Source: Nostoc sp. PCC 7524
Lineage (GTDB): Bacteria > Cyanobacteriota > Cyanobacteriia > Cyanobacteriales > Nostocaceae
Direction: 5' to 3'
Length of the DNA stretch: 64,000 nt
NCBI RefSeq assembly: GCF_000316645.1
Contig: NC_019684.1
Span: 3,377,501-3,441,500, forward strand
The notes under the pieces were generated by a model that worked only from the letters and a program-made list of their open reading frames with translations, was not told the DNA's origin and searched no databases. The translations under genes were made by a program, and so were the position numbers. Positions 11,610-41,991 of the stretch are shown in pieces (within the stretch, counting starts at the first letter, position 1; each line of letters opens with the position of its first letter).

Positions 11610-11681
11610 GCCGATGTGGCTCAGTGGTAGAGCAGCTGATTCGTAATCAGCAGGCCACGGGTTCAAATCCCGTCATCGGCT
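11610..11681 (+). tRNA. trnT-CGU: tRNA-Thr (CGU anticodon)
   Basis: The cloverleaf is complete: acceptor stem GCCGATG/CATCGGC, D arm with GGCTCAGTGGTAGAGC, anticodon stem GCTGA/TCAGC with loop TTCGTAA (anticodon CGT at 11642-11644), and T arm with GGTTCAAATCC. The terminal CCA is not encoded. It reads ACG codons. Confidence 0.95.
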
Positions 11682-21743: not shown

Positions 21744-21816
21744 GCGCTCTTAGTTCAGTTGGTAGAACGCAGGTCTCCAAAACCTGATGTCGGGGGTTCG
21801 AGTCCTCCAGGGCGCG
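21744..21816 (+). tRNA. trnW-CCA: tRNA-Trp (CCA anticodon)
   Basis: Acceptor stem GCGCTCT/AGGGCGC (one G-T pair), D arm GTTCAGTTGGTAGAAC, anticodon stem CAGGT/ACCTG with loop CTCCAAA (anticodon 21777-21779) and T arm GGGGGTTCGAGTCCTCC are all present. No CCA is encoded. The gene lies upstream of secE-nusG, as in many bacteria. Confidence 0.96.
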
Positions 21817-24229: not shown

Positions 24230-24392
24230 CAATGCCCAAAATTGAATAAGCAAAGCCGGAGACAGCAGGTGCTAATTGCTTAATATCCTGCCGAGGTAGA
24301 AGTTCTATTGCCGAAAGTTGCACGAAAATTGTGTGTAACTGTGGCCGCAATAGTCTTGATACTAAACCCCGGCTGAGATAGCTGGGGTTTAT
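24230..24392 (+). ncRNA. L10 leader RNA (rplJ-rplL autoregulation)
   Basis: The 336-bp rplA-rplJ gap contains a sequence resembling the ribosomal protein L10 leader, with CCTGCCGAGGTAGAAG near 24289. A perfect 7-bp stem AAACCCC/GGGGTTT (24364-24370 with 24384-24390) extends inward by a G-T pair and three more pairs, giving an 11-bp hairpin. The T tract after it is weak. In other bacteria the L10-L12 complex binds such a leader and controls the downstream genes. The exact ends are approximate. Confidence 0.65.
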
Positions 24393-24462
24393 TGTTATGC
24401 CCTAGTCAGAAAAAACATCACAAAAGAGAAATCGACGATTGTTTTGAGGAGGTGAAACCGAC

Positions 24463-37557: not shown

Positions 37558-38476
37558 GTGTACCTAGACAAATATCTTCATCCCACGATTCAGCCAAACC
37601 TGAGTTTGGCAAATAATTCCACAGCCACCATTCCCACTCAACTGGCGGGGGCAATTCTGGAGCAACCACTGCCATTAATCACAGATATCATTCATGATGT
37701 GGCAGATTGTGGGAGTTGGCTGAGTGTGCATCAGATTTGGGGACAATTGCCACCAGAAGCACTACAAGCGATCGCCAATTCGTTTCATTACTTTCGCGTC
37801 GCACCCCAAACCCTCATCTACCAAGAGGGACAAACCCCCACAGGCCTTTACTTGTTAAAGTCGGGCAAGGTGGAGATATTTCGAGAATCTTTGATTGGTC
37901 AATTGCTGATTCGGTATCGCCATGCAGGGGATTTGTTTGGTTATACTTTAATTGCGAATGCAGTAGAGGGACATTATCAAACAAGTGCGATCGCTCTCAC
38001 GCAAAGCGAAGTTTTATTTCTACCGAAAGCAGCATTTCAGCGTCTCATTGTTGAACACCCTACAATTCAACAGGTGATTCATTCCCAGCTTTCTCAAGAT
38101 TTGCATGAGTATGCCATTCGGATTGCTTGGTCACAAGTGCGGATTCAATCGTTACAATCTTACATCCAGCCAGTACCCAGTCAGACAGATATTATCGGCA
38201 GTAGTAAAGCAGCACAAAAGCTGACACAACAGATTAATCAAGCAGCCGCAAATCTCAAGCCTGTAATCTTACAAGCACAGGTAGGCACAGGTAAAACATT
38301 CGTGTCAGGTTTAATTCATGCTCACTCAGAACTAGCATCTCAACCCTTCGCGGAAATGGACTGTGCAAATTTACCGCGTGCAGAGGATGGCCGACTGAAT
38401 ACAGATGCCTTGTTTGGTAGGGTAGAGGAGCAACCGGGGATTTTAGAACTTTTGGAGCGAGGTACACTGCTGTTAG
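37558..38476 (+). pseudogene. 5' half of a cNMP-binding/AAA+/polyferredoxin gene, disrupted
   Basis: The first 306 residues comprise a variable N-terminus, a cyclic-nucleotide-binding domain of CRP type (about 68-185; PEALQAIANSFHYF, GLYLLKSGKVEIF) and the start of a sigma54-activator-like AAA+ domain (Walker A AQVGTGKTFVSGL near 239; DALFG near 282). Start GTG 37558 follows GAGGTATCACA. A 594-bp element beginning at 38477 brings in a stop at once. The GAFTGA loop expected between the LFG motif and the following ERGTLLL is absent, so the domain lacks the sigma54-contact loop. Confidence 0.75.
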
Positions 38477-38573
38477 CTTGAACTGACAGAAGCCTCTCAC
38501 TTACCGCAATAGCGGAAGTGATGAGATGAATGGCAGGGCGGTGAGGAGTCCCACCCCCGACCAATAACGACTA

Positions 38574-38732
38574 TCACTCGTTGAGGGAGTGGGGTGGGCG
38601 ACGAATCGCCAAACTTTGGACTAAGGTTCTCAACGCTTCAGACATCGGGATATCCAGAGTCTCTGCGAACTCTTTTAAAAGTCCCAATTCCCTGTCGTTA
38701 AGTCTTGTTTCAACCCTGTGTTTTCTTGACAT
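38574..38732 (-). CDS. ribbon-helix-helix protein of the IS605-type element
   Basis: A 52-residue protein starting at ATG 38732: MSRKHRVETRLNDRELGLLK, then EFAETLDIPMSEALRTLVQS and a short Pro-rich tail. A beta strand (RVETRL) and two helices with a central SEALR motif match RHH/CopG-like DNA-binding proteins. Similar small genes are carried by cyanobacterial IS607/IS605-type elements, often divergent from tnpB, where they probably regulate or shield the element. Its reading direction is opposite to that of the missing tnpB. Confidence 0.72.
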   Translation of the reverse strand: MSRKHRVETRLNDRELGLLKEFAETLDIPMSEALRTLVQSLAIRRPPHSLNE

Positions 38733-38799
38733 AATTACGACAAATCACCGTAACCATGATATACTTAAGTCGTACAGGTTTAATCAAATTAATAGCTAA

Positions 38800-39070
38800 C
38801 CGCTTCCTGTGCGCCGAACCTTGACAACTCAGAGTATGGGGTTCTACCCAGTAACAGACATTTGTTTGTCGCTTCTGTGGGTAGGTAAAACTCTGACAGT
38901 ACAAAGGATTGAACATTTTTGTACTTGTTCAAGTCTGCGGAGGGGCATCTCGTGGACTCAAAACAAAGCTCATCGCCTCCGTTCGCGTAGCGTCTCCGTC
39001 AGGAGAAGCAATAGCTGGATTGGATGAGAAGCCCACACTGTATGCTTGCATCAGTGTGGGAGTATGTCAC
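38800..39070 (+). ncRNA. candidate omega-RNA / tnpB 3' remnant
   Basis: In IS605-family elements the RNA that guides TnpB (omega RNA) covers the 3' end of tnpB and the right end of the element, and the guide is the sequence immediately outside the right end. Here the tnpB tail and the right-end hairpin are kept, with a short, structured region upstream (pairing of ACCCAGTA... with ...TGTGGGTA near 38850-38885). The outside sequence begins ATAATGTGCAGGTATTGAG, inside the host gene. Whether the RNA is made is unknown. Confidence 0.35.
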
Positions 39071-40887
39071 ATAATGTGCAGGTATTGAGTGAAGGCGATC
39101 GCACTCGCTTAATCCACTACCTCAAAACCGGATTAATTCTACCCAATCACGGTATTGTGGGCAAAATTAATCTCGCTACTACACCTCCCCAACCTGTTCA
39201 ATCTTGGGTGCGCCTCATCTTAGCATCACCCAACAAACTAGAATTACCTGATATTGATGCCATCACCATCAAACTTTTTAGCCTACCCCAACGCAAAGCC
39301 GACATTCCAGATTTCGCCCGCCACTTCTTAAATCAGTTTTGCCGGGAACAGAATCGCCCCTTGTTAAAACTAGATCAATCTGATTTGCGCCGCTTGATTA
39401 GCTACGACTACCCCGGAAACTTGGCGGAACTAGCAGAGATTTTGCACCGAGCCGTGACTATGACACCACAGGGACATTCAGTCATCCCAGAACAAGTATT
39501 ATGGTCGGTGCAATCAACCAAAAACGCTTTTCGGCTTGACTTATTAACTCATGTACCCTGGTTGCGGCAAGTGTTGCTAAGTCGTTGGTATCCTGACGGC
39601 ATCTGGATATTAATGATGGTAGTTTTTGTACCTGTGATTATCCTGGGTTTTATCGGCTCTCAAGAACGAGATAGCAGCGTCACCCTGAATTTATTTTGGG
39701 CTTGGTGGTGGCCTGGTTATCTGTTCCTATTTGCCTTTGTTGGTCGTCTTTGGTGTGCCGTTTGTCCATTTATGATCACCGGAGAATGGATACGGCGAAT
39801 TTCTCTATGGCTATTTCCCCGCCAACAACTCACCTGGAACACCCAATGGTTGAACCGTTGGGGAGGTTGGATTGTGTTCAGTGGCTTTGTAGCAATTTAC
39901 CTATGGGAAAAACTTTGGGACTTACCCCACCATGCTTACCTGTCTGCATGGTTGTTGTTGACAATTGCAGCCGGAGCAGTGATTTTCAGCCTGATTTACG
40001 AACGTCGATTATGGTGTCGGTATCTTTGCCCCATCGGTGGGATGAACGGGATGTTCGCCAAACTATCAATGATTGAGTTGCGCTCAACTCAACAAGTGTG
40101 CGGCAGTCAGTGCAACACCTTTGGCTGTTATAAAGGTACAGAAAAAACCCCTATCACCTTTGCCGAAGCCTTAGAAAACGAAGGACAAGCCACGGGGGGA
40201 TGTCCACTCTATTCACATCCAGCGCAATTACAGGACAACCGCGATTGTATGCTGTGCATGACTTGCCTGAAAGGTTGCCCCAATCGCTCCGCACAACTGA
40301 ATTTACGATTTCCGGCTTCGGATTTATTGGACAATCATCAAGGATTTTGGGCAGAAGTCGCCTTGTTACTGTTGTTATTAGGTGGTGTGTTCATGCACCA
40401 TTCTCAGACGATTTTAGAATGGTTGGGATGGGCTGCTGTTCCTGTGGATGCTGATCATTTGCCGATCAGTATTCCTGTTGCTCTTGTACTCTTGAGTATT
40501 CCTGCTGTATTGACTTATTTTACTCATGCGATCGCTCGTCTCCTCGATGCAGAGCAACCGGACTATCTCACCGTCATCTATGCCTATCTCCCCTTAACCC
40601 TAGCAGCCAATCTCACTCATTACATCCCTGCTGCGCTCACTGAAGCGGGGCAAATTATCCCAGTGTTAGCCAGGACACTAGGTTACAGTGGTGCAGGCTT
40701 ACCGACACTCACCTGGAATTTAGATGTAGCGCAATTCTTGCAAGGTGTGACTCTACTTTCAGCGATGGTATTTAGTCCTTATCCATTATTGCGGATTACG
40801 AGGCGATCGCTATTCCAAAACATTCCCCATCTGTTGCTGATGTTGGGTTTGACGGCATTCTTTTTTAAGTTGATGCTAGCAAATTAA
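39071..40887 (+). pseudogene. 3' half of the cNMP-binding/AAA+/polyferredoxin gene
   Basis: The reading frame resumes at 39071. The end of the AAA+ domain (SYDYPGNLAELAEILHRAV, a C-terminal lid motif as in sigma54 activators) is followed by a NapH/NosR-like membrane part: transmembrane segments from about 39600, Cys motifs GRLWCAVCPF, RRLWCRYLCPIGG and CGSQCNTFGCYKG, then CMLCMTCLKGCPN (4Fe-4S ligands), and more transmembrane helices. Without the element the whole protein would be about 911 residues. The ATG at 39046 belongs to the element, so a separate 3' product of about 613 residues is possible but not expected to be natural. Confidence 0.75.
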
Positions 40888-40944: not shown

Positions 40945-41991
40945 ATGCAGTCGTTTGAACCGGGCTTTATTGAAAGTCAACCGATTACTCAAAATCTACT
41001 GCGTACCATTCGCCTGATTGGTGAGTATAAAGGCAAACAAGATTTATTCAAAGAACAGTCACCTCAAGTATTGGAAACATTACGTCAAGCTGCGGTTATT
41101 CAAAGTACCGAATCTTCTAACCGTATAGAAGGTATCACAGCACCCTTAGAACGTATCAAAAAACTGGTAGCAGAAAAAACCACACCGCGCGATCGCTCCG
41201 AACAGGAAATTGCTGGCTATCGAGATGTACTCACAACCATTCACACCAGCTATACTCATATCCCTTTCACCCCTGGAGTTGTCTTACAGCTGCATCGTGA
41301 CCTTTATCAATTTACGGCGGCTGAGGGTGGACGCTGGAAGTCAGTAGATAATGAAATTAGCGAAACTTACCCCGATGGCAGAAAAATTGTCAGATTCCAG
41401 CCAGTTCCAGCCTATGGAACTCCAGACGCAATGCAACGTTTGCACGAAAAGTTCAATCGTCTGTTTGAGTCAGAAGAAATCGAACCGTTATTGCTTATCC
41501 CCACATATATTTTAGATTTTCTGTGCATCCATCCTTTTACTGATGGCAATGGACGGATGGCACGACTGTTAACACTACTGTTACTGTATAAAGCTGGTTA
41601 CGAAGTTGGTCGGTTTATTAGTTTGGAACGGATTGTAGAAAGTACAAAAGAAAGTTACTACGATACACTTTATCAATCATCGCAGAACTGGCATCAAGGA
41701 CAGCATAGCTTGTTGCCGTGGTGGGAGTATTTTCTGGGTGTAATCATGCTCTCACCGTACCGGGAGTTTGAGCAGCGAGTCGGGTTAGTCAGTTCAGCCA
41801 AGGGAGCTAAAACAGCTATGGTGCTAGATGCGATTAGCAATATACCCGGAGATTTTTCGATCAAGGATTTACAAGAACGATGTCCCACAGTGGGCATAGA
41901 CCTCATTCGCCGCATTTTACGCCAGGAGCGTAATTTAGGACGATTGGAATGTTTGGGTCGAGGCCCCGATGCACGTTGGTGCAAGAAATAG
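40945..41991 (+). CDS. Fic family protein (class II inhibitory helix)
   Basis: The 348-residue protein transfers AMP (or another nucleotide) to target proteins. The active-site motif HPFTDGNGRMAR is at about residues 196-207. An N-terminal inhibitory motif S-x3-E-G (SNRIEG, residues 58-63) marks a self-inhibited class II Fic. A winged-helix-like C-terminal region (DFSIKDLQERCPTVGIDLIRRIL) follows. Target proteins are unknown. It begins 57 bp after the interrupted gene, with its own weak ribosome site. Confidence 0.88.
   Translation: MQSFEPGFIESQPITQNLLRTIRLIGEYKGKQDLFKEQSPQVLETLRQAAVIQSTESSNRIEGITAPLERIKKLVAEKTTPRDRSEQEIAGYRDVLTTIHTSYTHIPFTPGVVLQLHRDLYQFTAAEGGRWKSVDNEISETYPDGRKIVRFQPVPAYGTPDAMQRLHEKFNRLFESEEIEPLLLIPTYILDFLCIHPFTDGNGRMARLLTLLLLYKAGYEVGRFISLERIVESTKESYYDTLYQSSQNWHQGQHSLLPWWEYFLGVIMLSPYREFEQRVGLVSSAKGAKTAMVLDAISNIPGDFSIKDLQERCPTVGIDLIRRILRQERNLGRLECLGRGPDARWCKK

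Follow-up and report, generated by a model that had tools for sequence, protein, structure and literature searches.

What a gene now cut in two by a mobile element once encoded, and which process its product served, are the questions raised by a locus in a 64,000-nucleotide stretch of the genome of the filamentous cyanobacterium Nostoc sp. PCC 7524 (NC_019684.1, positions 3,377,501 to 3,441,500; hereafter the window). Rejoined across the element, the gene predicts a fusion of a CRP-like domain, an AAA+ domain of the sigma-54-activator type and a membrane iron-sulfur (Fe-S) domain. It belongs to clade A, one of two clades (A and B) of its family, and clade A is shown here to be linked statistically to cysK and to sulfide:quinone reductase (SQR, encoded by sqr). 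This link to sulfide, which is not visible from the window sequence alone, is new here and is the most telling clue to function. With an even chance by our estimate, clade A would be the sulfide or low-oxygen isoform of an Fe-S protein that transfers electrons at the quinone pool and is gated by a hydrolysis-dead AAA module. The broken gene and the element are laid out as follows.

37558..38476, forward strand: 5' part of the broken gene, with the CRP-like domain (cNMP_binding fold) at about 37795-38055 and the start of the sigma-54-activator-type AAA+ domain at about 38191-38476.
38477..39070, forward strand: 594-bp non-autonomous IS200/IS605-like element, with TTAG at its left, no target duplication and a hairpin near each end.
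38574..38732, reverse strand: 52-codon open reading frame (ORF) within the element, with a weak match to DUF6290 (E 5.9e-4; 20.4 bits, below the cut-off of 27).
39071..40887, forward strand: 3' part of the broken gene, with the remaining AAA+ core, the AAA lid at about 39289-39483 and the membrane Fe-S domain.

The two parts are read as separate ORFs (37558-38481, with a GTG start at 37558, and 39046-40887), and joining 37558-38476 to 39071-40887 gives 2736 nt, or 912 codons including the stop, exactly the frame proposed in the initial annotation. The edges are fixed independently by three further complete copies of the element in the same genome, which are 100% identical to it and have the same first and last bases; since independent copies share exact ends, the junction lies exactly between 38476 and 39071, and disruption by a mobile element is confirmed. 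In intact clade A orthologues, which are plentiful, a single ORF (about 820-970 amino acids where full length) aligns to the N-terminal part up to residue 304-307 and to the C-terminal part from about residue 9 or 10. Both halves have been under purifying selection, with dN/dS against five intact orthologues of 0.08-0.22 for the N-terminal and 0.07-0.11 for the C-terminal part. Because intact orthologues align to both halves and both are constrained, the joined frame is not a chance frame and the halves are not two unrelated neighbours, a candidate that was rejected also on account of homologues with Pfam matches to both halves. The order of domains given in the initial annotation is likewise supported by Pfam matches (cNMP_binding, 1.2e-15; Sigma54_activat, 4e-11; AAA_lid_14, 3.6e-14; Fer4_5, 1.7e-08).

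The four complete copies of the element are all preceded by TTAG, their right flanks differ and no target is duplicated, while the hairpins near the ends have single-strand fold z values of -4.0 and -3.0. A fixed left target, the lack of duplication and end hairpins are what we take to be the behaviour of non-autonomous IS200/IS605 elements, with which this one was classed; a group II intron was considered by eye and dropped, as the ends behave like those of IS200/IS605. The identity of the copies indicates that the insertion is very recent. Versions of about 3.9 kb also occur in the genome (L134, G000:C2:176000-180300, and a like pair at C2:4147361-4151338), in which the first 40 or so bases are split from the remaining 560 or so by about 3.3 kb; in L134 this intervening stretch holds ORFs of 366, 529 and 146 amino acids, the first of which resembles, by eye, a tyrosine recombinase. 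It is improbable that the split gene still works, whether through excision of the element or through assembly of the two polypeptides: elements of the IS200/IS605 type excise precisely, the identical copies imply recent activity and strong past constraint is visible in both halves, but the insertion falls in the AAA core at Walker B, where the 307-residue N-terminal part ends, and the ORF list shows no transposase-sized ORF in the window's copy of the element. Clade A function has probably been lost in this strain, which holds an intact clade B gene at C2:6450892-6453414.

When an intact orthologue was used as the query, 7998 candidates were scored and 259 of them were homologues at E<=1e-10; the 120 among the matches listed all have Pfam matches from both halves. 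The clades were first cut at 55% identity and then checked against a tree of 98 rows including the window's C-terminal part (95 of them different, a few genes having been fetched twice), in which A and B are separated by one branch with support of 100; the window gene lies in clade A, and clade B is about 45% identical. The C-terminal part matched 52 of 59 genomes, its own included, five of them with a clade A match of at least 69% (G000, G003, G031, G039 and G057) and most of the others with the clade B kind. Across a draw of 386 Cyanobacteriota genomes the whole family occurs in 105 and clade A in 11, five of which also carry a clade B gene while six carry clade A only. The distribution of clade A is patchy. 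Some clade A genes are read as at least two ORFs (L048 6419-9129, L064 3998-6670, L071 3039-5761 and L073 5608-8502); these splits may be frameshifts, gaps or assembly errors, and clade A loss may have been repeated. In many small genomes (family f36 and a few others) the match to the clade B query does not begin until about residue 121-153 and falls mostly in ORFs of about 660-810 amino acids, so that the CRP-like part appears to be missing and the AAA and membrane parts kept.

The gene neighbourhoods set the two clades apart. Eighteen baits were tested over loci L032-L110 (79 of 110), whose flank lengths differ because of contig ends. cysK was found near 21 of 46 clade A loci and none of 33 clade B loci (p=1e-6; 24 and none by clustering), and it is the only bait that would stay significant after correction for 18. 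The counts for psbA (6 against none, p=0.04), petC (5 against none, p=0.07), rhodanese (8 against 1, p=0.07) and YgaP-TM (6 against 1, p=0.23) lean the same way; arsR lies at one locus of each clade, and the remaining baits were not significant. The links of psbA, petC and rhodanese to clade A are thus statistically weak and come mainly from examples. On plasmid pPg_03 of Pseudanabaena galeata the clade A gene is accompanied by DsrE, cysK, rhodanese, petC, psbA, a NifX-like gene, arsR and, 10 kb downstream, an sqr whose product matches a solved SQR at 3.6e-103, and on plasmid2 of Aulosira laxa it is found with petC, cysteine synthase, 2-nitropropane dioxygenase and psbA. In genome G495 (L141) one strand carries, closely spaced, sqr and arsR, then a hypothetical, a Tll0287-like, a DUF3122 and a NUDIX-like gene (the last by eye), and finally clade A and cysK; in G327 (L143) one strand runs over about 15 kb from sqr and arsR through clade A and cysK, with a cydAB-like pair (by eye) between. 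On this spacing and strand, the genes may form an operon. Both loci have DUF3122-like and Tll0287-like genes between sqr and clade A (L141 8539-9774, L143 5131-6396), which may be further undescribed parts of sulfide islands; Pfam confirms DUF3122 in L141 only.

The same neighbours could be taken to indicate a sulfur-handling reductase, in which partners for persulfide or sulfane sulfur (rhodanese, DsrE, Hdr-like proteins) would receive electrons by way of the Fe-S clusters, with sulfide for CysK as the product. We regard this as unlikely. cysK lies downstream, rhodanese shows the bias given above, and Hdr-like genes stand upstream of clade A in G476 (L142; Pfam CCG and Fer4), where sqr is convergent on clade A, and, by eye, in L047; however, p falls below 0.05 for no single bait but cysK and, weakly, psbA, no sulfur-binding motif was identified, and clade B loci have hardly any sulfur neighbours. 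Clade B was itself considered as a sulfide partner and rejected, its 33 loci holding one arsR, one rhodanese and one YgaP-TM, and no cysK, sqr, psbA or petC.

Clade A and SQR also occur together at the level of whole genomes. Thresholds of 1e-230 for clade A and 1e-70 for SQR were set before the counts were seen, so that clade B and flavoproteins other than SQR would not be counted; fragments and distant SQRs are missed at these settings, and one or two of the SQR places contain a stop. In a draw of 242 genomes from the order, 29 carry clade A, 43 SQR and 18 both, SQR being present in 18 of 29 genomes with clade A and 25 of 213 others (p=9e-9). Relatedness was handled by counting genera only, which gives 14 of 19 against 15 of 88 (p=3e-6; overlap counted by eye). 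The phylum draw of 386 genomes, which overlaps the order draw, has 34 with SQR and seven with both (p=6e-6). The two genes lie within 12 kb in three of 21 distinct genomes that hold both (G327, G476 and G495; by eye), against an expectation of 24 kb out of 5 Mb (p=1.4e-4; the cut at 12 kb was chosen post hoc), and clade B lies within 20 kb of SQR in none of 24 genomes holding both (by eye).

Several observations weigh against the reading of clade A as a sulfide isoform. sqr lies within 8 kb of only one of 46 clade A loci (none of 33 for clade B), and 11 of the 29 clade A genomes in the order draw lack SQR at the threshold. Across the phylum clade B also tracks SQR (24 of 99 against 10 of 287, p=9e-9), 'B' in this control being family-positive genomes that are not clade A only, including short f36 forms unplaced in the tree; the co-occurrence means that lifestyle or genome size contributes to the association, and when only the 105 genomes that hold A or B are compared, the effect of clade A is weaker (SQR in 7 of 11 against 20 of 94, p=0.006). 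The psbA and petC copies are assumed to be low-oxygen isoforms by analogy with papers on such clusters. Most source names in the family call its members 'transcriptional regulator' or 'cyclic nucleotide-binding', and the model of the membrane domain has no significant fold match in the PDB, in a library unchecked for a NapH or NosR structure. Finally, no sulfide-island genes were found within the window, where the gene is flanked by crtD and a Fic gene, and none of its eight nearest tree relatives has cysK as a neighbour, so the sulfide link of this subclade rests on the clade as a whole; one of the eight (L070) has psbA and rhodanese matches nearby.

The membrane domain has the following features.

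39493..40884, forward strand: membrane domain, a NapH-like helical unit and a C-terminal helical bundle, from the AlphaFold model, hydropathy and a napH_ model match.
39754..39765, forward strand: CxxC of the CAVCP motif (C237 and C240 of the C-part ORF), in 97/97 homologues.
40015..40029, forward strand: CxxxC of the CRYLCP motif (C324 and C328 of the C-part ORF), in 97/97 homologues.
40099..40278, forward strand: eight cysteines (C352, C356, C361, C386, C401, C404, C407 and C411), in 97/97 homologues.

The domain is polytopic (pTM of the AlphaFold model 0.80), and its twelve cluster-type cysteines are invariant in the 97 full-length homologues, a set from which 13 of the 110 loci (11 A, 2 B) with a best ORF below 800 amino acids were excluded; the eight in the last row are predicted to ligate two [4Fe-4S] clusters. 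The 'four Cys clusters' of the initial annotation are thus a fair description at the level of motifs (CxxCP, CxxxCP and two four-Cys ferredoxin-type sets), which we take to be marks of the NapH/MauN family. The NapH/MauN model (TIGR02163) is the best match among electron-transfer models (3.4e-11), although its 43.2 bits fall below the curated cut-off of 213.05 and, unlike NapH/MauN, the window protein is fused to CRP-like and AAA domains and has an extra C-terminal helical bundle. The NosR model (NF046105) matches weakly in the cysteine region (3.1e-05; 22.5 bits against a cut-off of 1000). NosR is a membrane Fe-S protein long called a regulator, whose N-terminal half is a flavin domain, whereas that of the window protein is CRP-like and AAA. 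The membrane part has a relative outside the cyanobacteria, a 4Fe-4S binding protein encoded on a Deinococcus ficus plasmid (NZ_CP021082.1, 507370-508647), with 26% identity across half of the query.

The cytoplasmic half carries the following motif.

38272..38298, forward strand: Walker-A-like motif QAQVGTGKT, from the translation and a motif table over 97 homologues.

In this motif the first Gly of GxxxxGKT is replaced by Ala, while Lys and Thr are kept. The column of the catalytic Walker-B Glu holds Asn in 94, His in two and Gln in one of the 97 homologues, and Glu in none. The GAFTGA stretch is absent from the consensus of clade A and of clade B, and the distance from LFG to GTL is 16-22 residues in all 97; the GAFTGA loop of bacterial enhancer-binding proteins (bEBPs) is usually longer. 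In the CRP-like domain the Glu of the cyclic-nucleotide (cNMP) phosphate-binding cassette is found in none of the 97, and six of the 40 A proteins and four of the 57 B proteins have Arg in the column that, by our own reading, is that of the cassette Arg. Pfam finds no DNA-binding domain in the window protein, and sigma-54 (PF04552) in none of 20 genomes, its own included (positive controls, 4/14); the consulted passages of PMC3162934 report its absence from 29 cyanobacteria. The domain still matches AAA+ in Pfam, its fold being kept without catalytic residues, and the residue counts show that this bEBP-derived AAA+ domain has lost its catalytic and sigma-54-contacting parts.

Many source names, which include 'sigma 54-interacting transcriptional regulator', 'nitrogen assimilation regulatory protein', 'cyclic nucleotide-binding domain-containing protein' and '4Fe-4S binding protein' or similar, imply a sigma-54 enhancer-binding transcription activator. 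Beyond these names, the Sigma54_activat and AAA_lid_14 matches speak for it, but with a family that, unlike NtrC1, NtrX and NifA, has neither GAFTGA nor the Walker-B Glu nor a Pfam DNA-binding domain, in hosts without sigma-54, this reading is extremely improbable. Without Walker-B Glu, GAFTGA, cassette Glu and sigma-54, the protein is unlikely to hydrolyse ATP, to activate sigma-54 or to take canonical cyclic-nucleotide input of the kind known from CRP/FNR and PKA-R, as judged from residues; the initial annotation's suggestion that the chain might link a second messenger and ATP hydrolysis to electron transfer is, on the first two counts, unsupported.

A different regulatory role is possible, although we doubt it: the protein may be a membrane redox sensor whose Fe-S clusters would respond to the quinone pool, to sulfide or to oxygen, with the CRP-like domain and dead AAA module as the output that binds a regulator such as ArsR, or else RNA polymerase carrying a non-54 sigma factor. 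Its cytoplasmic domains are of the regulatory type, with the AAA fold retained, arsR and sqr are neighbours in L139, L141 and L143, and adjacent psbA and petC copies suggest a switch. Against this, there is no Pfam DNA-binding domain, ArsR has already been proposed as the regulator of sqr (passages of PMC5061849), twelve invariant cysteines in a membrane setting resemble an electron path, and the versions lacking the CRP-like part apparently keep the AAA and membrane parts. Under the reading of clade A as an electron-transfer isoform, the NapH/NosR-like membrane domain would carry electrons between the plastoquinone pool and cytoplasmic Fe-S clusters, which would exchange them with a ferredoxin-like partner. 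The CRP-like domain and dead AAA module would form a gate driven by ligand, through nucleotide binding and no hydrolysis, or an assembly platform. Clade A would be the version for low oxygen, when sulfide feeds the quinone pool by way of SQR, and would work alongside exchanged forms of D1 and the Rieske protein. In the window strain the clade A gene is interrupted by a fresh IS200/IS605-like insertion, with the clade B paralogue left intact.

The window strain does hold an intact SQR, in an island 2.1 Mb away (L147, G000:C2:1277000-1293000) with ArsR-, PsbA- and PetC-like genes and, by eye, nitropropane-dioxygenase-like and thioredoxin-reductase-like genes. The Fic-family gene that follows clade A in the window occupies 40945-41991, and in an Oscillatoriales genome (L075, 11613-12638) clade A and cysK are followed by a gene whose start looks much like that of the Fic gene. 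Elsewhere in the window there are a ribosomal protein L10 leader (24238-24402; Rfam RF00557) and tRNAs at 11610-11681 and 21744-21816.

The islands with clade A are of the same kind as the cyanobacterial sqr-psbA and sqr-petC2 clusters described in passages of PMC5061849 and PMC11304991, where ArsR, arsenic genes, psbA or petC2 are named and the clade A protein is not. Those passages report 15 genomes in which sqr lies close to a low-oxygen or anaerobic psbA and name arsR as the likely regulator of sqr (PMC5061849), and they describe petC2 flanking sqr and arsR beside it (PMC11304991). Polysulfide induces cysK2 in Synechococcus PCC 7002 (passages of PMC12466478), and Phormidium pseudopriestleyi has type II sqr and arsR (passages of PMC8002359); its genome also holds a clade A gene, the one read as two ORFs in L064. 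The clade A protein is not named in the consulted passages of these four papers, of PMC5776472 or of PMC3162934, and in the open-access literature we found no description of the family, in agreement with the statement of the initial annotation that no function was known for the architecture.

How electron flow in cyanobacteria is rewired when sulfide replaces water is a long-standing question; SQR, low-oxygen D1, PetC2 and ArsR have already been considered in this connection (PMC5061849 and PMC11304991, passages). We tentatively suggest that an activator AAA+ domain may have been co-opted to gate membrane electron transfer, and that A and B would be a new cyanobacterial Fe-S oxidoreductase linked to plastoquinone, A being exchanged like D1 and Rieske under sulfide photosynthesis. 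The family looks like a case in which the AAA module of sigma-54 activators survives, its catalytic residues gone, in a phylum without sigma-54, and this large, conserved and misleadingly named membrane Fe-S protein of some sulfide islands is a concrete gene for genetic study.
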